Shown here piece by piece: positions 18,963 to 48,064 of a DNA stretch of 64,000 bases. The DNA is from Daucus carota subsp. sativus (lineage: Eukaryota; Streptophyta; Magnoliopsida; Apiales; Apiaceae), in contig NC_030383.2 of the NCBI RefSeq assembly GCF_001625215.2, forward strand, positions 57,774,949-57,838,948, written 5' to 3'. The translations under genes were made by a program, and so were the position numbers. Numbering within the stretch: position 1 is the first letter of the stretch; each line of letters begins with the position of its first letter. Under the pieces are notes generated by a model, which was not told the DNA's origin, did not search any database, and worked only from the letters and a program-made list of their open reading frames with translations.

Positions 18963-20178
18963 AAAGTTGATCGCTTATGGTTAGCAAAAGCAAAAGAAAC
19001 ACGATCGCATGTCCTCTTTCTTGCCCACAATCAACAATCAATTCATAATCTCTCTTTTGTATGACAAATTGAGATCAATATTGTAATATGGAATCAATGT
19101 AGTGCTAAGTTGAGAATATTCTTTTTTGTTGTTTTAACACAGGATTCCATTGTAAACTTTAAAATAAGAATAGAGCTGGTTATACTGTGGTACATTGTTA
19201 AAAACACAATATACAATATAAGTAGTGGCAATAGCATATTCACGTAAATAGCAGTATTAGAGGATTTGCAAAACCATGAATATATAGAACCCGCAGCCAT
19301 CATAAATTAACAATTATCCAACATAAACTTGTTAGAACTAATTTCATCTTTACATTTATGAATCGTGACATCTACTTAATTTTTGAAGCCAAAGGAAATA
19401 TAGCCTCGGCAAAAAATAGAGATAGTCCCTGGAAGTGGTCTTTTTTCTGGTGTCATAAAAATCCCTAAATATCAACACGCAGCCATAAGGACTCCCTTTG
19501 TCTCTTAAATATCAACATCTAAAGCTTCTTGTTATTTTTCTGCTGCGGGTATAGCTTTTTGTTAATGCTTGTCTTCCCATGTCCTTATGAGTTAAGTACA
19601 TACAGCCGGTGACGGAGCTAGGAAGAATTTTAAGAGGGGCCGGAATGTAAAAGTTATTTAAATTCAAAAATATTATATATCAGATTTTATAATAGCATTA
19701 GTGATAAAATTCCATTTATTTTAAATTTCTATGAAAAAGCTTAATCATTTCATTAAGAAAATTTAATTATTTAACTACCAAGCGGTCAAGGACGGAGATT
19801 TGAAAAAACAAATTGCAAATAGAAAGACTCATAAACAGTTTTAAATGTTATTTTATGTAACATTTCACTATAAAATAAATAATTATAGTTTTCTTGTGAC
19901 AACCAAAGGTCCAAAACTGCAGATATTATCTTTATTACTTCCCATTTTTCACAAATCTGAATTGTGATATACTGGGCCGTACTTGAGTTGGGTCCAACAA
20001 AACTGGCCTTTGGGTTCGTCAAAGAAAAGTAGGGTTCTCGTTCTGCTTACTTACTCCGCCTATAAATGCATCAAAGCCGCCGACGGCACAGCCAATTTTA
20101 TGTAGCTCTCGTATTACAAAATCAAATTTGTACTTTACAATTTTATTTGTGGTAATTGATTTACGTGGAGTCATATAA

Positions 20179-20416
20179 GCAGATGATGAAAGATTTTGTA
20201 TTTGGGCTGATTAACCGTGAAGCTCCAAATCGAGCTTTTTAAAACTGATGCTTATCTCTCTCTTCAATCCAAATTTACATTATTATTGTTATTATTAATT
20301 ATGTAATTGAGTGATTTAGAATAATTGCTGGGGAAGCTGCAGATGATGATATATTATGTATTTTGGGCTGATTAACCATGAAGCTCCAAAATCGAGCTTT
20401 TTAAAACTGATGCTTT
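20179..20416. repeat. ~76-bp direct repeat pair
   Basis: Units 20179-20253 and 20339-20416 share GGGCTGATTAACC(G/A)TGAAGC and CGAGCTTTTTAAAACTGATG. Between them is unrelated AT-rich DNA. Confidence 0.85.
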
Positions 20417-23357: not shown

Positions 23358-26300
23358 TCATAGTTTCTTCGGGAAGTTGTAGGTCTTTTTGAGAAAGTTG
23401 GTTGCCTGTTTATCATTCCGATAACATAAAACACGTAAATTTGTATTGGCTTCTGTAGGTTGATAGGTCCATTATTTTGCACATTTTAACTACCTATTTA
23501 TTGCTTGTTTTCGTATTTTTATTAGTTAATTGTTTTGTTTTCAGGAAATTTTAGAGAAATCAAGAATTCAAGAGAAAAAGGAACAAAAAGGTGCAAGAAG
23601 GGAAAAAGAGGAAGAAAAAGAAAAGAAGAGGAAGAAAAAGAAAAGAAGAAAAAGAAAAAGAAAAATGGAAAAGAAAATCAAGACACAAAGACCCTTCTAC
23701 CCCTAAAACCCTAATCTTGGCCTATATAAACATCATTTTCTCTCATTAGCCACCATCTTAGTCTTTACCCTAGTTTTACCTAGTTGTTAGTAGCCTCCTT
23801 CATCACTTTCTAGCTTTCTTTTTCAAATTGTAATCTCTCAAATATTGTAAACACTTTCTTGTTTAATATAATTTCAAGTTTAGTTTCTTCATCTCCTACA
23901 TCTTTACCTTGTTGAAATTTATGGCTATGATCTATTTTCTTTCCAACAAGTGGATAAAGTGGCATGTATGCCAACCACTTGTGGGTTGAAAGAGCCTTTA
24001 TTTTATGTTTTAGTTTACATTTTGATATTTAGATTAAGCCCCTTTTAAATCTCAATTTTATTAGTGGGTTTAATGATTTAGTATTTTTGTTTTTGATTTT
24101 GGTTTGTAGTTTGATGGGGTTTTGTTAGAAACATGGTAGATAAGCTAGTTTTGAAGTTTTGTTGGATTTAGAGTTAGTTTGATATGATTTGGTAGTGTTC
24201 TTGTTCTTGGTTTTGGTATTTTTGAGGGCTTTTTGGTGTAAATTTTAGTTTATGATTTTGACTTGAGGTTAGTGGGTTTGTGTTTGAAATATTATGTTTA
24301 GGTTAGATTTAAAGTTTGGTGTATTTTGGAGTTGTTTTGGCTTGATTTTGGTCTTGTTTTGGTGAGAAATGGGTAGTTTAGGAGCTATTTAGTGTAGAAT
24401 TTATTGTTGAATTTGATTTAGAGGTTAGTGGGGTTTGATTTGTTATATTTGGAATGGCTAGATTTTCCGGTTAAATTGATTTTCCGGTAAGATTTAGACT
24501 ATTCCGGGGACCTCCATGTATTCCGGCGATGGTTCGTTAGACTGATATGTTTCTGCGATTGTTTAGTATATACGTTGATCTTCATGTTTTGGTTCAGTGG
24601 ATTACGTGTTTAATTTGTGTCAATTTTTCTTTTCTTTTATTTTTATTTTTTATTTTTCCGTTTCTTTTATATTAAGTTTGTTTTACATGGCCAGTGTATC
24701 TGCTTGTTCTGTTCACAAATCACACACTCCTCTCCCTTTTATTTGACACGCTCAGACCACGGACCAGTTCTCTGTCTTATGTTTTAAATTAATTCTGTTC
24801 GTTTGTTATTCTTTATATTTTCTTTTTAAATTTTCTTTTGCATTTCTATATTGATTTTGATAAGTGATTAATTTGTTTACTTTTTTTTATTTGAGAAATG
24901 TTTAATATTAATTAGTAAAATCAATATTCTCCTCAAAATTAATTTGGTCTAATTTGATTAAGTTAAAAATTAAGTTTTCGCGAAAATAACTTTAGTCCTT
25001 GGAACGAATCTTATATTACTAAAACGGGATCGTGCACTTGCGATTAATTTTAAAATCATATTTTGAGCACATCATAGGTTTCCACTGACCAGATGTTGGA
25101 GGCAAGGTGTTGAGACACCTACATAAGCGGGAAACATGCATAGTAGTTATCGGCAGTATTTAGTAGTTAATAGTTATCTTATCTTAACATGTTCTGGTCT
25201 TATTAGTGGGATTACTTGTGTTAGTGGTAGCTATAGTTTAGGTGTCACGATGTATCCTCTATTCTCTATCCTGTATATAAATTTGCAGAACTAATATAAT
25301 CTGTGTGAAGTGTTTTATCTCTTCAAGCACACCTCTCTTGTCACTGTTGATAAATTCTAACTTGGTATCAGAGCCTTATGGCCAACGCTAATATTCAAAC
25401 AAATCAGCCCTTATATTCTCTCGGTGGAATGCTTTCTCAACCACCATCAGTAAAGTTAGATAATGACAATTTCTTGCTTTGGCAAAATATGGTATTGCCA
25501 CTTCTGAGAGGTCATAAGCTTGAAGGTTTTCTAACTGGTGAAATACCATGTCCAAACGAATTTATTGTTTCCACCACAACAACTTCTGCTTCAATTGTAT
25601 CTGGAACACCATCACCACCAAAAAAAGATCCAAATCCTGATTATGATGTTTGGATCTCAAAAGACCAACTTCTGTTAGGTTGGTTATATAATTCTATTCA
25701 GCCACACGTTGCGGCTAGATTGATGGGTTTTACAACTTCGAAGGATCTGTGGGAAGGCATAAAACAATATTTTGGCATGCAAAACAAATCTCGTATCATT
25801 TTCCTGACAGGAGAGTTGCAACAAGCCAGGAAAGGCACAATGAAGATCGCTGAATATTTGAACTCAGTGAAGTCTATTGCTGACAATTTGGCTTTGGCAG
25901 GAAAGCCAATTGATAGTTCTGATCTTGTAACTCAGGTTCTTGCAGGACTCGATGAAGAATATACACCAATTGTTGTGCAAATCAGCGGAAGAGAATCAAT
26001 CTCTTGGGTCGAGCTACAATCTACTTTGATGACTTATGAAAGTCGCCTAGAGCAATTAAATGCAACACGTTTAAGCTTGGCTGGAATGGAAGTATCACGA
26101 CCAACTGCAGCATTTGCAAATAAGGTCAATCCAAATGCTCGCAATAGTAATTCGACTGGCTTGAATTACAAGAGTCATAGAGGCGGAGCACAAGGAAGAG
26201 GAAATTTCAGGAATGGTAATACCAGAGGGAGAAACCGTGGAGGAAGAAGTTCAAACTCCAAATTAATGTGTCAAATTTGTGGAAAACCTGGACATACAGC

Positions 26301-29300
26301 TCCCTACTGTTGGAATAGATATGATGAGGATTTCATGGGCACCTCCCCAGACACAAGTAAAGGAAAGCAAGAAAGCTCATCGATTGCATTTACAGCTGCT
26401 ATAGGGTCAGAAGTTGATCAAAGCTGGTTTATGGATAGTGGGGCAAGCAATCATGTTACAAACGATGAAACTCAGTTATCGAATGCAGGTAAATATTTCG
26501 GTAGAAAACTCTGATGGTTGGAAATGGATCAAAACTTTGTATTGCACATACCGGAAAAATACTTGTTCCATCCTTGGATCACAAGGTGTTGCAATTAAAA
26601 AATGTTCTTCATGTGCCTTGCATTAAGAAAAATTTGCTCAGTGTCTCTCAATTAGCTTTTGATAACAATGTCTTTACTGAGTTTCACTCTAATTGTTGCT
26701 TTGTTAAGGACAAGGAAACGGGACAGGTTCTTCTTCAAGGGACGCTTAAAGATGGTCTGTATCAGTTAAAGCTTGCAGATAGATTTAGAAGCTCAAAGTC
26801 AATGTTTAGTCATTCTAATGTTCCAATTGCTCGAGAAAATAATTCTTCTCATGTCGCACTTGAGTCTAGTGTCGTTGATTCTCGAAAAGAGTTGTTTCAT
26901 AGAAGATTTGGTCACCCATCAAATAGAATTTTATCAACAATTCTAAAGTCTTGTAATCAGTCCATGTTCTTCAATGAAAATCAATTTTTTTGTGAAGCTT
27001 GTCAGTATGGAAAATCTCATTCTTTACCGTTTCCCACATCTGAATATCATGCACAAGAACCACTTCACTTGATCCATACAGACTTATGGGGTCCGGCACC
27101 TGTCCAATCTTGTGATGGATACAAATATTATATCCATTTTTTAGATGATTATAGCAGGCATATTTATCCTTTAAAAACCAAAGGTGATGCACTTGATGTG
27201 TTTATCAAATTCAAAAGGCTGGTTGAGAACAGGTTCAACAAAAGGATAAAAATTGTTCAATCTGATTGGGGAGGAGAATATAGAAGCTTCAGTAAAGTGT
27301 TGGAAAAGTGTGGCATTGAATTTCGACACTCTTGTCCACATACTTCTTCGCAAAATGGACGAGCCGAAAGAAAACATCGACATATTGTCGAAACTGGCCT
27401 CACTCTTCTAGCTCAAGCAAAAATGCCTCTGAAATATTGGTGGTATGCTTTTCAAACTTCTGTGTACCTAATAAACTGTATGCCTACTCCTGTTCTTAAT
27501 CTAAAATCCCCCATTCAGACTCTTTACAACCAGAAGCCAAATTATCAATTACTCAAAGTCTTTGGTTGTGCATGTTTTCCTTGTCTCAGACCATATCACA
27601 AAACTAAATTTCAGTTTCATACGATAAAATGTGTGTTTCTCGGATACAGTCCAGGTCACAAGGGATATCTTTGTTTGAGTCCTACGGGTAGAGTTTATGT
27701 GTCCAGGAGCGTTATTTTTAATGAGAATAATTTTCCTTTTGCACATACAAAATTTCTCACCAATAATTGGCATCAATCTGAACACTCTGTTGTCAACTCG
27801 TGTTCATCATATTCTATACTACCTTTATCTCCCTTAAATTCCACAGATGCGATAACTGATACAAGACCTCAACAAGCATTTTTTGAAGGCGGGTCGGTAC
27901 CTTCTGAGTCTGAAAACTTGCAACAACCAAGTGATGAATCTTTGGCTCAACATGATCACAACACTCCATCAGCGGCAAATTCATCTGCTCAAGAATTCTC
28001 TCCAATAGATTTGGAAGAACACATAGAGTCTTCTCATTCAGTTGATGTGTCTGCAAGTTCAAGAACAGGCAAAGCTCATGCAGAAAGTCATAGCATGGTT
28101 ACACGAGGTAAAGCTGGGATTTTTAAACCGAAAGCTTATATTACCAATGTTTGTCATGAACCTGCTACAGTACAGGAGGCTCTTGCAAATGAACACTGGC
28201 ACAAAGCAATGCATGAAGAGATGGCAGCCCTCACCAAAAACCATACATGGCAACTTGTTCCATGGCGACCAGATATGAATGTGGTGGAAAATAAATGGGT
28301 GTTCCGTATTAAAAGAAAAGCTGATGGATCTATCGATAGATTTAAAGCACGTCTCGTGGCGAAGGGATATTTACAAACTCCAGGAGTGGATTTCACTGAA
28401 ACCTACAGTCCAGTTATTAAAGCCTCTACAGTTCGTATCATCCTTACCATAGCCATTTCAAAGAATTGGAAAATCAGGCAACTTGATGTTAACAATGCAT
28501 TTTTGAATGGGAAGCTTCATGAAACAGTGTATATGGCTCAACCGGAAGGATTTGTTGATGCAAACAAGCCTGGATATGTTTGTAAACTTGAGAAAGCAAT
28601 TTATGGATTAAGACAAGCACCTCGTACCTGGAGTGATGAATTAAGAGAGACGTTACAACGCTGGAATTTTATTCAGTCTCAGTGTGATTCATCTTTGTTC
28701 TTTTTGCAGGCCAGGAACAAAATAATATTTGTTCTTATCTACGTGGACGACATCATTGTTACAGGGAATGATGATTCTTTGTTACAAAAATTTATTCAGC
28801 AATTAAATCGCATGTTCTCCCTGAAAGATCTTGGTGATCTTCATCACTTTCTTGGTATTGAGGTCCATCGAGATCATACCGGTCTGTTTCTTAGTCAAAC
28901 CCAGTACATACGTGATATTCTTTTCAAGTTTGGTATGTCACAGTGTAAGCCATGTCCTACACCCATGAGTACTGGTAGAAGTATCAGTCTTTCTAATGGT
29001 ACACCAATGCATGATCCTACTGTGTATCGAAGTGCTGTTGGAGCTCTCCAATATTTACTTCATACAAGACCTGATATTGCTTTTGTAGTGAACAAACTCA
29101 GTCAATTCTCACACACACCAACTGATGTGCATTGGCAACTCCTCAAGCGTGTATTCCGATATTTGCAAGGTACATCTCAGTTTGGTTTATACATTCAGGG
29201 CAATGAAAGGCTTAATGTTACCGGTTTCTCTGATGCTGATTGGGCTTCATGCCCTGATGATCGTCGATCAGTAGGTTCTTATTGTGTATATTTAGGTGAC

Positions 29301-32300
29301 ACTTTAGTCTCCTGGTCATCCAAGAAACAAGGTGTTGTTGCTCGCTCCAGCACGGAGGCTGAATATCGCGCTCTTGCTAATGTTGCGGCAGAGATTACTT
29401 GGATTCAGTCATTGTTCAAAGAAATCGGAGTTCCCTGTAGTAGTACACCCATTACTTGGTGCGATAACATGAGTGCTAATGCTCTTGCTTCTAATCCAGT
29501 ATATCATGCACGGACAAAACACATAGAGATTGATGTTCATTTTATTCGCAGTAAGGTGCTTAACAAACAACTTGAAGTTCGGTACATTCCTTCTTATGAT
29601 CAGGTTGCTGACATGCTCACTAAGCCTCTTACACATTCTCGATTTCTTTTCTTGCGTGACAAACTCAATGTCAGTCAGGTTCCCTTGAGTTTGAGGGGGG
29701 ATGTTGAGACACCTACATAAGCGGGAAACATGCATAGTAGTTATCGGCAGTATTTAGTAGTTAATAGTTATCTTATCTTAACATGTTCTGGTCTTATTAG
29801 TGGGATTACTTGTGTTAGTGGTAGCTATAGTTTAGGTGTCACGATGTATCCTCTATTCTCTATCCTGTATATAAACTTGCAGAACTAATATAATCTGTGT
29901 GAAGTGTTTTATCTCTTCAAGCACACCTCTCTTGTCACTGTTGATAAATTCTAACTCAAGGGAAGGCTAGAACTAGCAGACGGGCCATACTCGTTTGATA
30001 TTGAAGCTCTGAACTGCTCGATGAGGCTCTGAGTGTCCATATGGAACAGGGGAAGTATACGTTTCACAATGAGTGCAAATCTGTTTATTAATTCAGGTGG
30101 TAATTCATATCCACTGGAACAGAAGAAATTTTGAAGAAAATCAAAGTCTTCCTCTATCATTATATAGTCTTCCACCGAATAGGCACGAGAAGGGCCTCCT
30201 GCAAGCAGAATCAACAAGAAACCATCAAAAGAAGCTTTCATCACATCGGCAATCAGACGTGCCCGGACTCTGTCATGAACGGTGGATGATATGATCTCCA
30301 AGTATTGTTTGAGATCTTGAAGAAAAGGTTCTATCCTAGAAGAAGAGACTTCCCCAAGATATAGACCATCCCAGAACACGGGACTTAAATCACGAAAAAT
30401 GAGCTTGTATGCAGTTGCCACGCATAACTGCTGCACCCCTTCTGAACAAGCAGTTTGTGAAAGCTCAAACACTTTCCCCTTATCATCCAGATGAGTATAT
30501 TCAGCATTTCTTAAGTGAGCGGTCATCCTATTCTGTAGAACTTCCAATTTTTTCCGTATGAGGTGCAAGGTATTTATGCGAACACACAGTTGCAGAATTC
30601 CTGAGTTGTCCTCATTTAAAACAGGTTTCCTCCTCGGAATCAACTTATCTTTCTTCCTGAAGACACCTTGGAGTTTTGATCCCGCTGTACATCTGGTCAA
30701 ATCAGGAATAACGGGAAGAAATTCACCTCGAGATCCTGAAGACCACAACAGAACACAACACAATGAGTTATTTTGAATAGAAATTTTTCCTTTAAATATG
30801 AACTTTGTACTAATAGTTAACATGTAATGCTCACCACAGTGAGATTTTGTAGTTATTATGTAACTCTGAACGCATTTATCAAGACTCCTCATCAAGTCAG
30901 GTAGTAATATAGGATGCCTCGGTATTGGCAGCAAAAAGAATGCTTCCAGAGTTTCATCTGCCATCCGAAGAACCTCCACTGCCGATGGAGCAGATCGCTC
31001 TTTGTTTGCTTGTGGATTCCACACCTGTAACAAAAATTTATATCAATCTAGCAGTTTCAAAATGTATGTGGTCAAGTTTTATACCTGTAATGTCAGTTAA
31101 AAATATGACAGATAACGAGGAATTTTAATCACATATCTGGTCAGCATCATACAAAGCCCCTAAGAAAAGATGGATCTGCATGAACTTCTTGAAGAGTAAC
31201 AAATCAAGATTCAATGCATAATGTTATTTGATCTGTAAATCCTGTCAATTTAATTTATCATTCAGCTGGTTAAATCAAATTTATTAATTAAATTAGCTTG
31301 TGAAGTGAGATTATTATTGACATTGTGGGTGATCTTTAGTTTTGAATTTAAAAAATGCCAAGATAAGTATTGTAAGCTCAATCAAGGATAGTTTGTGTGC
31401 CAGTAATATGGAAGACTGGTGGAGTTAAAAAATTACAAATCAGGGCACCAATATAGGTTAACCAGAGAGGGGAAGTAAATACTACAGCAAAAGGAAAAAA
31501 AGTCATACCAGAAAACAAAGGATAAACTATTATACTCTGGAAGAGAGAATGTCAGTTGAAATCCGGCATTTAAAATTAGGCATTAGACATTGGGTCTCAT
31601 TAGACATTACCTACCAGAATCGGTAGGAAATCTGGCTTGCAAAACCGACCAGAAGTGATTGGTAGGAAAAGGGTAGTTGACCACATAATTGGTAGGAAAT
31701 GCCCGTTTTGCTTGTAGTGTCCTTATGTGAATTTTAAATTTTTTACTTGACAACTTGTATTAAATTTGTGGAGAGTCTAACTCTATACAAGGCATAGGTA
31801 AGGCCATGGTATTAGATTAAGGACTTGGTCACCAAATTTTCACAGTAAGAAAAGACGAGTAATATCTAATCATTCATGTCATGTTGTCACCTTCTTTCTG
31901 AATGTAAGATCATTCTCCTGCCAATCCAATTACAAAGCTAGATCACTATCTTGTAGGAACCACATATGCAATCCATATGCTTGATAGAATTAATAAATTT
32001 TTCCTGGCGTTTTTTTTTTCCTTGAAGTATAAATTATCCCTGAAGGAGGAAATTAATAGCCTAGTTGCAGGGCTCCTTCCGCTATCCCTATTGGTTGTCT
32101 ATTGTTGAATCATTTCCACGACTTGACAGATAATTCAATAATATTATAGTATGTACCTTAAGTAAGGCCATACGTTCCTTCAAGATAAGTATTTTGCTAT
32201 TATCACATACTTAAACTACAATGTGGTATTGGTGCAGTTCTCACTGAAATTGACTTTTGACAGACTTTACCTCTACCCCTAGGAGTAGAGAGGGTGCTTC

Positions 32301-35242
32301 GGCATAGGCCTTCGGCTTTGGCATTGCAGTAAGTGTAACAATAATACAAACACAGCAAACAACATTTTACTAGATTAGCTAATCTAATATGGCATGTTCA
32401 CGAATACCTAGCATTAACCAGATAGAAACCAAGAGCGAGTTTTAAGAATCAAGTTTGGATTTGAATAATACCTCTTGTTGCAGATTTCTAACAATCCATT
32501 CCTTAAGCCTGTCTATTCTTGTGTTTATCCAAGATTTTACTAGATTTGCAATCACACCTTCAGTCTCATAAGGAGGCATCTCCTGAATTATTGATATTCC
32601 ACCATCCTCACTGTCAACTGAATCTTCCACTGCCATCTGCACTAGATCTTTTTCCAGCTTGTCGGCAGATATCAACACTTGAATACCATCAGGAGTCAGT
32701 TCGCTGATGCCCGAAACAAATTGTTTCAATTCATTTGCATAGCAAGCATGTAGAGTTGCTACGGCTACACCTGTTGCAAGAGGGTGCCATCTCTTCAAAA
32801 TAGGACTATATATTTCCTTCTCATTATAAGCAAGATCGCTAATGTCTTGAGCAAGGATGGAAAGGACAGGAAGAGGACTTTGCTGATGTCTTGCTGACCG
32901 TCTGCTTAGATAGATTTTCTCCTTTTTCTGTCTTAAGGTAAGTATAAAAGTCATACTCGTGACAGAATATATGAATTTTCAAATTCTAAGTGAAGAAAAA
33001 CAGCAATGTGGATATAGATTTTTGAATTTAAATAAAACGGAGAAATGCTATAATAGCATGTGGTGATAACAGAATATAAACATTAGAAGATGACACAGAA
33101 AGATTAGACTATTAAGGAGAAGAGACAAGGAAAACTTTGACTCTGGAGGTTTTATCTTGAAGATATAATGTTAATGATAAACACAAAGTATCTACGGAAA
33201 CTAACAGAGCCTCATATGCTGAATATTTGAAAATAATCTAATCAATAATAAGAGAGAATTTTGCATTTGGTTTGAGCTTTGTTCATTAAGAGTTTACCAT
33301 CCCCTGTATTACATTATTCAAATCACTAATAGCAATTAGACTGACAGCACCACAGGGAAATTCGAAAGAATAACATAAAAGAAAGATTAACTAGTTAATG
33401 AAAACTTGCCTGATGGAATGCACTGGCAACTGATGACCTAATGTAAGTGTTAAGTTGGCGACATGAGATGCCAACATCTGTGTTCTTTTCGTGTGAAATG
33501 TCTTCCCCCAATATATTATTCGTTAAGACATTGAGTGATAGAACAATTTGCATTAAATCAGTGTTACCCCTGTAGAAAGTGTCATGGTAAGCAAAGAGTT
33601 TTTTTCCACCCCAACTCAGAATTGAGCTCAAAGCTGAATTTAAAATCTTGGAGTAAGAAGGATCCTTTGTTGCCTTTGCGTCCTTTTCAACTTCCAAAAA
33701 TATTTTTTCAGCAGCGAGGAGCAGGTCTTTTTCAACTTCGCCTGTAGCAACATAACGGTCAAATAATACCCATAAAAGACAGAGATTATGGTATGCTTGG
33801 TTTAGTCCAAGGATCCCCCATGTTTTCTTTATGAGCTCTAACAATTCATCAACTTCCTCTATCACAACTGTTGCGTTATTAATATCAAAGCAAGATTCTA
33901 AAAGCGTCTGATACACTCGGAGATTAAAAGGTACCCCATCTGCCCAATGGCATATATCAGAGACAGAACCATCAAACGATCTACAGGCAAGAGACATAAC
34001 ATTGTTCCATAATGCTTGCATTGTTTCACTTCTACCAGTCTCGATGGGCCTCTCTAAACCCCCATCTATAATCTCGCGAAGTTTTTGAGCAGAAGCATTG
34101 GTCTTGTCAAGAGGCACATGAGAATGCTGGAGAATACCAGCTTCAAGGACCTTCAATATCCTCTTTTGCCATGCTTCATATTCTCTTGCAGAGGAAAAAT
34201 CTGAAGCTTTTAGTTGTTGTAATAGCTCTAGAGGTAAAACAAGAGACTCCATCCGCTTCCCTAGCTAAAACAAGATCAAGACAATAATTGATATCCAATC
34301 ATTCAATATAGTCACATTCTAAAATCCTCCTTCAACAATGTGATCCATCCATGGGTGGCAATGTGTAATAAGACCAAATATCTTACTTCATTATTAACAC
34401 AATAGAAAGATCGGAAAATAAAATACACGTCTCAGTTAACCCAAATGTCACATTCTCACTCATATTAACTCCACGTTACATGATTGAAGGATCTAATTAT
34501 GTGCATTTTACAAAAAATTTAAATATACAATTTTTCACACTCCAAAATCAATTCGGGAAGGTTACTATAGACGAGAAATTAAATGTACATGATCACCGCA
34601 TATAGAATTATCCTTAATTCTTATTGAGTTATGCAGTTATGCTAAAGGTACAAAATTGTGTATCAAAATTTATCCACAGATGACGATGTATCGATGACAT
34701 CAAAAAACTTAATCGGTGATATTGACGTGAATGCGGAGATGTATCGTAATTATTGAGTCATAACCAATACAAACATTTCCTATCGAAAATCTGAGGTTCT
34801 AAACAACAGAAACTAAAAAATTAAACTACAATATCACATACATACACACATATATTTTAAGAAAATAAATATGTACCTGACCAGCCGTAATTCTAAGCAA
34901 GGCACGTCTAACCCTAGAATCGACTTGCTCAGAAACCTTCATCTGAACCCTCATCAACTCTCCTACAGCCCCAACTCGCTTGCCTGAACCCAGTGAGTTC
35001 TGTTGAGTGAGCACCGAGTTCTTCAAGCCCCACTCTTTTTTCTCCTTTGTTGACGAAGCAGATACAAAAGTCAACGGTCTGGAACCTCTGGAGCTCCGAG
35101 AAGCCGCGATGAAGATCTCGTACGCGGTTTCTCGGAGCTCCGAGTCCGAGAAGTGGAGGCCCAGCTGAGGAAACGGGCTGGCCAGGCCGGAGGTGGTGGT
35201 GAAATGAGTGTCACTGTCAGTCACCATGGTGGTGCTGGACAT
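23358..35242 (-). CDS. UNC-13-like DUF810 (MUN-domain) gene, last exon broken by two LTR insertions
   Basis: Minus-strand exons: 35242-34877, 34264-33410, 32927-32472, 31024-30835, then a last exon from 30735. All junctions keep frame; intron 2 is a GC-AG intron. The protein opens with a low-complexity head and SDSELRETAYEIFIAASRSS, then LPLELLQQLKASDF, SPILKRWHPLATGVAVATLH and LPIPRHPILLPDLMRSLDKC, hallmarks of plant DUF810/UNC-13 homologues related to PATROL1 (vesicle tethering/priming at the plasma membrane). The last exon reads ...GPSASSSLPL and is then cut by the copia element (25108-29956). Host sequence PPTSGQWKP resumes at 25102, is cut again by the solo LTR (23461-25074), and continues to CYRNDKQATNFLKKTYNFP and stop at 23358. 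The ancestral protein would be 923 residues. The present frame ends at TAG 29951-29953 inside the LTR, giving 883 residues and losing the last 41. Nothing else is broken. Confidence 0.92.
23461..25074 (+). mobile_element. Solo LTR of an unclassified LTR retrotransposon
   Basis: 1614 bp beginning TGATAGGTCC and ending GAGCACATCA (TGAT...ATCA), with exact 5-bp duplications TAGGT at 23456-23460 and 25075-25079. It contains a GA-rich purine tract (23560-23690), an AAACCCTAA box and a plausible TATA box CCTATATAAAC (23721-23731). No primer-binding site, polypurine tract or coding domain is present, so it is a solo LTR left by LTR-LTR recombination, perhaps Ty3/gypsy by its length. It lies antisense to the host gene, inside its last coding exon. 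Confidence 0.9.
23723..23730 (+). promoter_or_regulatory. Putative TATA box within the solo LTR
   Basis: TATATAAA in a suitable position about 260 bp into the LTR, downstream of the purine tract. It could still drive transcription antisense to the UNC-13-like gene's remaining segments only if oriented upstream of them; it points away from the main gene body along the copia element. Confidence 0.35.
25108..25362 (+). repeat. 5' LTR of copia element
   Basis: 255 bp starting TGTTGAGACACC and ending TTCTAACT, immediately before the primer-binding site. It contains a TATA box (TATATAAA, about 25275) and therefore a likely transcription start. The 3' end is CT where CA is usual. Confidence 0.97.
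25363..25375 (+). other. Primer-binding site, tRNA-Met type
   Basis: TGGTATCAGAGCC directly follows the 5' LTR. It is complementary to the 3' end of plant initiator tRNA-Met, the usual primer of plant copia elements. Confidence 0.95.
25378..26514 (+). CDS. Copia Gag and start of protease
   Basis: 378 residues beginning 3 nt after the primer site. The N-terminal half is a plant copia Gag of the type beginning with VKLDNDNFLLWQNMVLPLLR (capsid-like helical domain). Residues 298-311 form a CX2CX4HX4C zinc knuckle (CQICGKPGHTAPYC) after an Arg/Gly-rich stretch. The frame enters the aspartic protease with WFMDSGASNHV (catalytic DSGA), then ends at a TGA at 26512-26514 only about 25 residues later. 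A normal element continues in one frame into Pol, so the stop reflects a single-base-scale frameshift just upstream. The stop overlaps the next ATG (TGATG). Confidence 0.93.
   Translation: MANANIQTNQPLYSLGGMLSQPPSVKLDNDNFLLWQNMVLPLLRGHKLEGFLTGEIPCPNEFIVSTTTTSASIVSGTPSPPKKDPNPDYDVWISKDQLLLGWLYNSIQPHVAARLMGFTTSKDLWEGIKQYFGMQNKSRIIFLTGELQQARKGTMKIAEYLNSVKSIADNLALAGKPIDSSDLVTQVLAGLDEEYTPIVVQISGRESISWVELQSTLMTYESRLEQLNATRLSLAGMEVSRPTAAFANKVNPNARNSNSTGLNYKSHRGGAQGRGNFRNGNTRGRNRGGRSSNSKLMCQICGKPGHTAPYCWNRYDEDFMGTSPDTSKGKQESSSIAFTAAIGSEVDQSWFMDSGASNHVTNDETQLSNAGKYFGRKL
26514..29720 (+). CDS. Copia Pol: rest of protease, integrase, RT, RNase H
   Basis: 1068 residues in the frame offset from gag. Domain order: remainder of protease; GAG-pre-integrase with the HHCC zinc finger (HRRFGHP...CEACQYGKSH, about 125-170); integrase core with acidic residues D190 (HTDLWGP), D251 (QSDWGGEY) and E285 (NGRAERKH); reverse transcriptase from about 570 with YVDD at 743-746; RNase H near the C-terminus (SDADWASCP, SSTEAEYRAL, TKHIEIDVHFIR). 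The first ATG coincides with the gag stop, but it is probably not a natural start: the intact family encodes a single polyprotein. The stop codon (TAA, 29718-29720) lies 19 nt inside the 3' LTR. Confidence 0.95.
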   Translation: MVGNGSKLCIAHTGKILVPSLDHKVLQLKNVLHVPCIKKNLLSVSQLAFDNNVFTEFHSNCCFVKDKETGQVLLQGTLKDGLYQLKLADRFRSSKSMFSHSNVPIARENNSSHVALESSVVDSRKELFHRRFGHPSNRILSTILKSCNQSMFFNENQFFCEACQYGKSHSLPFPTSEYHAQEPLHLIHTDLWGPAPVQSCDGYKYYIHFLDDYSRHIYPLKTKGDALDVFIKFKRLVENRFNKRIKIVQSDWGGEYRSFSKVLEKCGIEFRHSCPHTSSQNGRAERKHRHIVETGLTLLAQAKMPLKYWWYAFQTSVYLINCMPTPVLNLKSPIQTLYNQKPNYQLLKVFGCACFPCLRPYHKTKFQFHTIKCVFLGYSPGHKGYLCLSPTGRVYVSRSVIFNENNFPFAHTKFLTNNWHQSEHSVVNSCSSYSILPLSPLNSTDAITDTRPQQAFFEGGSVPSESENLQQPSDESLAQHDHNTPSAANSSAQEFSPIDLEEHIESSHSVDVSASSRTGKAHAESHSMVTRGKAGIFKPKAYITNVCHEPATVQEALANEHWHKAMHEEMAALTKNHTWQLVPWRPDMNVVENKWVFRIKRKADGSIDRFKARLVAKGYLQTPGVDFTETYSPVIKASTVRIILTIAISKNWKIRQLDVNNAFLNGKLHETVYMAQPEGFVDANKPGYVCKLEKAIYGLRQAPRTWSDELRETLQRWNFIQSQCDSSLFFLQARNKIIFVLIYVDDIIVTGNDDSLLQKFIQQLNRMFSLKDLGDLHHFLGIEVHRDHTGLFLSQTQYIRDILFKFGMSQCKPCPTPMSTGRSISLSNGTPMHDPTVYRSAVGALQYLLHTRPDIAFVVNKLSQFSHTPTDVHWQLLKRVFRYLQGTSQFGLYIQGNERLNVTGFSDADWASCPDDRRSVGSYCVYLGDTLVSWSSKKQGVVARSSTEAEYRALANVAAEITWIQSLFKEIGVPCSSTPITWCDNMSANALASNPVYHARTKHIEIDVHFIRSKVLNKQLEVRYIPSYDQVADMLTKPLTHSRFLFLRDKLNVSQVPLSLRGDVETPT
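29693..29701 (+). other. Polypurine tract
   Basis: GAGGGGGGA immediately before the 3' LTR, the plus-strand primer site. It overlaps the end of the pol reading frame (LSLRGD). Confidence 0.9.
29702..29956 (+). repeat. 3' LTR of copia element
   Basis: 255 bp, identical to the 5' LTR except for C at 29876. Its last bases place a TAG stop (minus strand, 29951-29953) into the UNC-13-like reading frame. Confidence 0.97.
30736..30834 (-). other. 99-bp stop-free intron of the UNC-13-like gene
   Basis: Donor CTGTG|GTGAGC and acceptor TTCAG|GATCTCG. Family alignment from memory (CGSR after KSHCG) supports removal. The intron length is divisible by three and has no stop in the coding frame, so retention would add 33 residues and not truncate the protein. 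Confidence 0.75.
31608..31719 (-). mobile_element. Isolated CACTA-type terminus in an intron
   Basis: Read on the minus strand from 31719, it starts CACTACAAGCAAAACGGGCA and is followed by repeated TTCCTACC(A/G)AT motifs (three direct or inverted units within 110 bp), the subterminal repeat style of CACTA (En/Spm) transposons. The partner end is missing, so this is a truncated remnant in the intron between the third and fourth exons of the UNC-13-like gene. Confidence 0.65.
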
Positions 35243-35862: not shown

Positions 35863-36256
35863 GAGCATCTCCAACCATCGAAAACCCTTGGCTAAAAGGT
35901 GAGATGACATACTTAAAATAAAAAAATTTAGTCAATAGCTTGAAAAACTCAACCCCAACCATGTTCAGCTGTTGTCAATAAATTTAGCCAACCTCCTATG
36001 GATGGTTAAATTTGTCGAACCTCTACAGGTCTGTAAGAAATCTGTAGAATAATTGTACATCATTTATTACCATATTGAACTGATATATTCTATTTTATCA
36101 ATTTAAAATATTAAAAACATACTGTTTTTAAATTATAGCCAACCAATATAGCCAATACTATTGAAGCAAAATGTCTTACAGGTTCAGCAAATTTTACATG
36201 ATATCTTACAGGTCCAATTTAGCCAACGATTATAGCCAACGCCATTGGAGATGTTC
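35863..36256 (+). mobile_element. Tourist-like (PIF/Harbinger) MITE, copy 1
   Basis: 394 bp with termini GAGCATCTCCAACC and, in reverse, GAACATCTCCAATGG, flanked by TAA on both sides (35860-35862, 36257-36259). A 3-bp TAA/TTA target duplication is typical of PIF/Harbinger MITEs. Two further copies are present at 37918-38274 (reverse) and 45198-45560. Confidence 0.88.
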
Positions 36257-36348
36257 TAACATCGAAAAATGTAGTTGTATCCATAATAGTTCAATGAAAT
36301 TGGTGTCAAATAAGGTCTTTGATGCAGGCAAGTGAAAATTAGAATAAC

Positions 36349-37917: not shown

Positions 37918-38274
37918 TAGTTAGCTAAATTGGACTTGCAAAATATTGTGTAAAAATTGCTGAAATTGTAACACATTGCACTTCATATTGACTATATTGG
38001 TTGGTTATAATTTAAAAATAATATGTTGTTAGTATTTTAGTTTGTTAAAATAGAATTTATGATTTTAATATGATAATAAATGATGTGTAATTTTCCTACA
38101 GATTTCTTACAGTCTGTAGAGGTTCGACAAATATATTCATCCATAGGAGGTTGGCTAAAATTATAGACAGCAGATTCATGTGGTTGGAGTGTGATTTTTT
38201 CAAGAAATTGGTTATATTTTTTATATTTTATATGCCAACTCCTAGATAAAGATTTTGTATGGTTGGAGATGCTC
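37918..38274 (-). mobile_element. Tourist-like MITE, copy 2, inverted and left-truncated
   Basis: Reverse complement of the element at 35863-36256. The right end GGTTGGAGATGCTC (38261-38274) is intact; interior landmarks TAGCTAAATTGGAC, TATATTGGTTGG and CTGTAGAGGTTCGACAAAT follow in order. The outermost ~30 bp of the other end are lost. Confidence 0.8.
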
Positions 38275-45197: not shown

Positions 45198-45560
45198 GGT
45201 GTCTCCGATCATGAAAATCCTTAGCTAAAAACAGAGTTGGCTTAAAATAAAAAAATTTAGCCAACAGTTCGAAAAACTCAACTCCAACCATGCTCAGCTG
45301 TTGTTTATAAATTTAGACAACGTAGGAGATGGCTAAATTTGTCGAACCTGTGAAGATTGCACATCATTTACTACCATATTGAACTGATATATTCTATTTT
45401 AACAAATTAAAATATTAATAACATATTATTTTTAAATTATAACCAACCAATATAGCAAATACCATTGAAACAATATGTCTTACAGATTCAGCAAATTTTA
45501 CATAATGTCTTACAGATCTAATTTGACCAACGATTATAGCCAACTTCATTGGAGATGCTC
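45198..45560 (+). mobile_element. Tourist-like MITE, copy 3
   Basis: Colinear with the element at 35863-36256 in the same orientation (shared TTAAAATAAAAAAATTTAG, CATGCTCAGCTGTTG, ACCATATTGAACTGATATAT, GATTATAGCCAAC). The right end GGAGATGCTC is followed by TTA; the left flank is TAA, consistent with a 3-bp TSD with one change. Confidence 0.85.
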
Positions 45561-46009
45561 TTATAGACTTGTAATATTTTAAATTATATTAATAAAATAA
45601 AATTGAATGACATTATCTATGATACAGGCCTGTTCTGGTCTGTGTAACCTAATTTGAATTCGTGAAAATGAGTGACTCGGGAAAATTAGAATGGAGGTAA
45701 TATTATCTAGCGAGGTATGTTAAACGCGAGCGAAAATAATTAATTTATATGTACAGTCTTGAATGTTTGTTGATGTGTTAAATTTAGATTAAATTATAAT
45801 ATTATACAATTTTAAACATATCTACATTAAAATAAAAATATGGGATATAATGATCTTGGAAATAAATTTAAAAAGATGTGAACTTCATCTTAAAAATATC
45901 AATATTTTATTATATTATATCGAAAATTGAAGTAGAAAAATAATTTGAAACAAATTTTTTTCCATAATAAATATTTACTTCGAAACCGGGAGAGTATAAT
46001 ATTATATAT

Positions 46010-47833: not shown

Positions 47834-48064
47834 CTCCCTCTGTTTTTTTTATATGACGCTTTGACTTTTAGCACACACTTTTAAGTGCTTTGATCGGATA
47901 GTTAAAAATATTATTTTTTAAAATTTCTTTTCCTGAATAATAATATATAATCAATATTTTTATTTAGAACAAGAAAAGTCAAAAAATAATATTTTTAACT
48001 ACCCGGTCAAAGCACTTAAAAGTGTGTGCCAAAAGTAAAAGCGTCATATAAAAAACAGAGGGAG
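47834..48064. mobile_element. Stowaway MITE
   Basis: 231 bp; arms CTCCCTCTGTTTTTT, ATGACGCTTT(T)ACTTTT, then CACACTTTTAAGTGCTTTGA are nearly perfectly inverted for about 70 bp each. TA on both sides. It lies only 49 bp from the previous Stowaway. Confidence 0.93.

Follow-up and report, generated by a model that had tools for sequence, protein, structure and literature searches.

How can a carrot gene be listed in public records as encoding a complete protein when, in what appears to be the assembly on which that record lies, its last exon is interrupted twice by retrotransposon sequence? The locus that raises this question is found in a 64,000-nucleotide stretch of Daucus carota subsp. sativus DNA (C3:57774949-57838948, in which C3 measures 64,558,952 bp), hereafter the window, and the genome searches reported here covered 441,086,747 bases in 11 contigs. 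Our reading, to which we assign a probability of roughly 0.93, is that two LTR retrotransposons integrated independently in the last exon of a five-exon UNC-13/PATROL1-like (DUF810, MUN-fold) gene and broke it. Events of this type are already known; the anatomy of this one is unusually clean, and it offers a roughly datable gene disruption in an apparent crop reference genome together with an intact paralogue for comparison.

The gene lies on the minus strand, in five exons. Exon 1 (34877..35242), an open frame with its ATG at 35242 and a GT donor, is followed by exon 2 (33410..34264), exon 3 (32472..32927), exon 4 (30835..31024) and the first part of exon 5 (29957..30735), which runs to ...SSSLPL (residue 882). 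The introns are GT-AG except one, of the GC-AG type; this is intron 2, whose GC donor lies at 33410, at the end of exon 2. After residue 882 the end of an antisense copia 3′ LTR supplies a Ser codon and a stop (29951..29956, minus strand), and the gene in its present state encodes 883 aa, with the stop at 29951 within the LTR end. The rest of exon 5 is split, on the same strand, into an island between the two insertions (25080..25107, PPTSGQWKP) and an orphaned end (23358..23460), which carries the remainder of a 41-residue tail and the stop codon and was recovered at C3:57798309-57798416 by a genome search with the NCBI protein P0001. When the flanks are joined at the target site duplications (TSDs) to give the empty site, a protein of 923 aa ending at 23358 is obtained from a coding sequence of 2,772 nt, in which all five exons are open and exons 4 and 5 together measure 1,095 nt, stop included. 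The latter figure had been given in an initial annotation of this DNA, which placed both insertions, both TSDs, the frame and the coordinates exactly to the base. It also stated that no other lesion exists, and reading through the five-exon frame indeed revealed no coding-sequence lesion besides the two insertions. Its description of the tail was right as to the family type, and the tail, which ends ...KTYNFPKKL, continues for three residues after the quoted part.

The insertion that follows residue 882 is a Ty1/copia LTR retrotransposon of 4,849 bp (25108..29956) on the plus strand, antisense to the gene, with two LTRs, a TSD, a primer-binding site (PBS), a purine tract and the corresponding Pfam domains. 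Its 5′ LTR (25108..25362, plus strand), 255 bp long with TG...CT ends, and its 3′ LTR (29702..29956, plus strand) differ at 1 of 255 sites; the PBS, TGGTATCAGAGC, begins at 25363, directly after the 5′ LTR, and the purine tract precedes the 3′ LTR. Two plus-strand frames are present, a gag-protease of 378 aa (25378..26514; PF14223, E 1e-18), in which a motif marks the putative protease part, and a pol of 1,068 aa (26514..29720; rve and SH3 at 27060-27719, RVT_2 at 28200-28999). A Pfam search of three pieces thus returned the Ty1/copia domain order, PF14223 gag, then rve and SH3, then RVT_2. This copy is not one open frame: gag-protease is read in one frame and pol in another. The ENA protein P0252 is 98.2% identical to the pol over 728 positions and starts with the same methionine; it may share the split between gag and pol, or it may merely have been called from the pol methionine. 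By eye, the pol of the window is two residues shorter than P0252 in the integrase part. The TG...CT ends depart from the usual TG...CA and were not counted as defining, because non-TGCA LTR families are known (PMC5659011). A search of the 441-Mb genome with the copia LTR returned only the two LTRs of the element itself, a result that is no proof of rarity; the source of the element may have been lost, may have diverged, may have been missed by the search or may be present only in other plants.

The second insertion is a solo LTR of 1,614 bp (23461..25074, plus strand) with TGAT...ATCA ends and a TATATAA at 23723, a lone LTR between TSDs some of whose relatives elsewhere occur in pairs. A genome search with its first 1,000 bases gave at least 43 matches, one of them the solo LTR itself, a lower bound derived from 40 scored candidates out of 390. 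Seven further loci (L002-L008) were compared with the solo LTR; each of them aligns as far as both LTR ends, at about 92-93% identity over the first 1,070 bases and 85-92% over the last 140-180. Six of these loci make up three pairs, with 6.7 to 9.2 kb between partners. Retrotrans_gag and RVT_1 frames were found between the LTRs of one pair (in two pieces of L009), which places the family among the Ty3/gypsy elements. Athila-like Ty3/gypsy solo LTRs are similar in their long LTR and in the RVT_1 and Retrotrans_gag of the full relative, a likeness drawn from LTR length, domains and a PBS of probable tRNA-Asp type. In its central part, at about 1069-1472 of 1,614 positions, the solo LTR gave no alignment to the family copies compared; for two of them this unaligned part ends near 1440.

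Both inserts are flanked by perfect 5-bp TSDs, CAAGG at 25103-25107 and 29957-29961 for the copia element and TAGGT at 23456-23460 and 25075-25079 for the solo LTR. The stretch between them measures 33 bases if each TSD is counted once, 23 if neither is counted and 28 if only CAAGG is, the last being the spacing first proposed. The two inserts share no direct repeat as long as 30 nt, and at the level of sequence they are unrelated, because the relatives of the solo LTR are a repeated Ty3/gypsy family and the other insert is a Ty1/copia element whose LTR found only itself in the genome search. The earlier claim of two independent LTR hits in one coding exon is therefore sustained by the TSDs and by the different superfamilies. 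Perfect TSDs and complete LTR ends at both junctions also argue against an assembly artefact, in which unrelated repeat sequence would have been joined into the exon. It is true that assemblies fail at repeats and that NCBI has an intact protein on a contig equal in length to C3; however, DH1 v3, the apparent source of the window (440.7 Mb, longest sequence 64.5 Mb), was built from doubled-haploid PacBio and Nanopore reads, according to PMC10581907, and we regard an artefact as highly improbable.

The closeness of the two insertions had led to the proposal of an integration hotspot in the 33-base island. In its favour, the chance of two random insertions falling within 33 bases of each other is 2.4% in the 2,772-nt coding sequence and 1.2% in the gene body without the inserts, but the locus was picked out for precisely this closeness. 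A uniform model predicts about 28 pairs at 33 bp or less genome-wide, a rough estimate that ignores clustering and starts from about 15,000 LTR retrotransposons and solo LTRs, a figure derived from PMC9324142; exonic pairs would be rarer. This pair is therefore no evidence for a hotspot. Furthermore, the two families differ, and CAAGG and TAGGT have no clear common motif by inspection (n=2). The proposal thus finds no footing here, and we consider it as improbable as the artefact.

The consequence of the two integrations can be read from the empty-site protein, which, tested for equality, is identical over 923 of 923 residues to P0001, recorded as ‘protein unc-13 homolog [Daucus carota subsp. 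sativus]’. It belongs to the DUF810/PATROL1 family, with a match to Pfam TPR_PATROL1 (PF25761) at residues 533-922 (E 1.3e-150), and the gene in its present state is without the tail. A family search scored 7,995 candidates and found 803 proteins; an alignment was made of the 120 that were listed, one of which is P0001. Every one of these 120 spans 36 or more of the final 41 columns, and the alignment of the tail to the family, by which the initial annotation had proposed to be judged, turns out in its favour. The commonest residue has a mean share of 0.89 across the tail, compared with 0.81 for residues 101-882 and 0.62 for residues 1-100. In the predicted structure of P0001 (mean pLDDT 72, pTM 0.55, from 31 aligned sequences) two helices are predicted in the tail, at 894-902 and 907-917, and the pLDDT of the tail blocks is 73-87, except for the final three residues, at 41. 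A sequence search of the PDB gave no match; all seven PDB structure matches at E ≤ 0.001 are Munc13, with moderate query TM values of 0.26-0.36, and in fold the model matches solved Munc13 MUN domains. In these respects, a MUN-type helical protein with TPR_PATROL1 and Munc13 fold matches, the carrot protein is like the plant PATROL1/DUF810 proteins treated in PMC11427605, where PATROL1 is described as working in H+-ATPase traffic in guard cells; unlike them, the carrot copy is without the last 41 residues.

The NCBI record itself is the main difficulty. The whole 923-aa P0001 is listed on a contig of 64,558,952 bp, equal to C3, as is P0121, another protein of the window, and on these equal lengths we rejected the idea that window and record derive from different carrots. 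A whole protein over a broken gene is an annotation conflict that counts against the broken-gene reading. Canonical splicing as the origin of the 923-aa protein was rejected: a search that left exons 1-4 unchanged and allowed as many as three additional introns (GT/GC-AG or AT-AC) gave 0 splicing solutions for the exact P0001 from the window, with a best result of 269 of 301 residues. A nearly full-length protein might still be made if the insert sequence were spliced out, and one in-phase pair of sites would carry the exon through 29956 and resume it at 23452, giving, by a hand calculation, a protein of 913 aa in which 11 residues are dropped. However, on an approximate matrix the donor of this pair scores 1.2, against 6.0-7.9 for the four real donors, and its acceptor 4.7, against 4.3-10.6 for the real ones; an intron of 6.5 kb would be needed, and the exact protein, as said, has no solution. 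Six other in-phase pairs outscore the candidate, and such pairs are therefore expected by chance. We think it very unlikely that splicing rescues the gene in any way, and a shade less likely still that both insertions jointly act as one intron between these two sites, the exon taking in a single base beyond the copia junction, resuming beside the solo LTR and staying in frame; if true, this would be a 6.5-kb intron gained from two unrelated retrotransposons.

If the gene is instead broken by the two integrations, as we prefer, the P0001 record must bridge the insertions, because the assembly search yielded no further copy, and we infer that it does so most simply through transcript or protein evidence from insertion-free plants. 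A record built on such plants would mean that intact alleles exist, perhaps in other carrots. It seems, then, that a gene broken in an assembly can appear whole in a public protein record, which is relevant to pan-genome and knockout inference.

A genome search with P0001, in which 39 of 39 candidates were scored, found one locus near 100%, that of the window; the next are at 77% (C3:38.22 Mb), 64% (C8) and 60% (C1). With a single locus near 100% and the next at 77%, an intact duplicate within the same assembly was rejected. The intact paralogue that the initial annotation had suggested looking for does exist: the 77% copy, about 20 Mb away, has a complete 921-aa frame and four canonical introns, and may buffer the disruption. 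Compared with it, the gene gives a dN/dS of 0.197 over 913 codons and of 0.097 over the 41 tail codons, values that come from one paralogue and cover the time since duplication, not since insertion. They show that purifying selection acted on the gene, including its tail, through the greater part of that time.

At a substitution rate of 1.3e-8, the divergence of 1/255 between the copia LTRs corresponds to about 0.15 My, with an upper 95% limit of about 0.8 My, or of 1.5 My at a rate of 7e-9; the solo LTR is undatable by LTR divergence. The small difference between the copia LTRs accords with the recent event envisaged at the outset, and the disruption would be recent and is probably not fixed in carrot. 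In the course of events that we propose, a Ty1/copia element, still near full length, and a Ty3/gypsy element, of which one LTR remains, each integrated independently in the last exon, the solo LTR presumably having formed through LTR-LTR recombination. The copia LTR provides the stop after residue 882, and the allele would yield either a protein shortened by its final two predicted helices or scarcely any protein.

Among known carrot elements, DcAle and other low-copy Copia lineages are comparable to the copia element in superfamily, recent activity and perhaps low copy number, and DcAle is more often near genes and has many single-copy subfamilies, as PMC9324142 presents them. The Alex1 and Alex3 insertions described there are near genes or in introns, in contrast with the exon hit here, and the word ‘exon’ is absent from the main text of that report. 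Another carrot gene disrupted in the DH1 reference is the Y2 candidate DCAR_730022, with an insertion of 17 kb, according to PMC10581907; it differs in having one insertion and a link to carotenoids, whereas the UNC-13-like gene has two LTR insertions and no known trait.

Minor features were noted on both sides of the gene. Two successive matches to the box C/D snoRNA SNORD36 are found on the plus strand at 20177-20254 and 20337-20416. On the other side, related MITE-like repeats, 81-89% alike and in direct and inverted orientation, are present at 35912-36257, 37986-38199 and 45241-45561, and a MITE-like hairpin at 47840-48060 has arms of 107 nt, 88% complementary, separated by a spacer of 7 nt.
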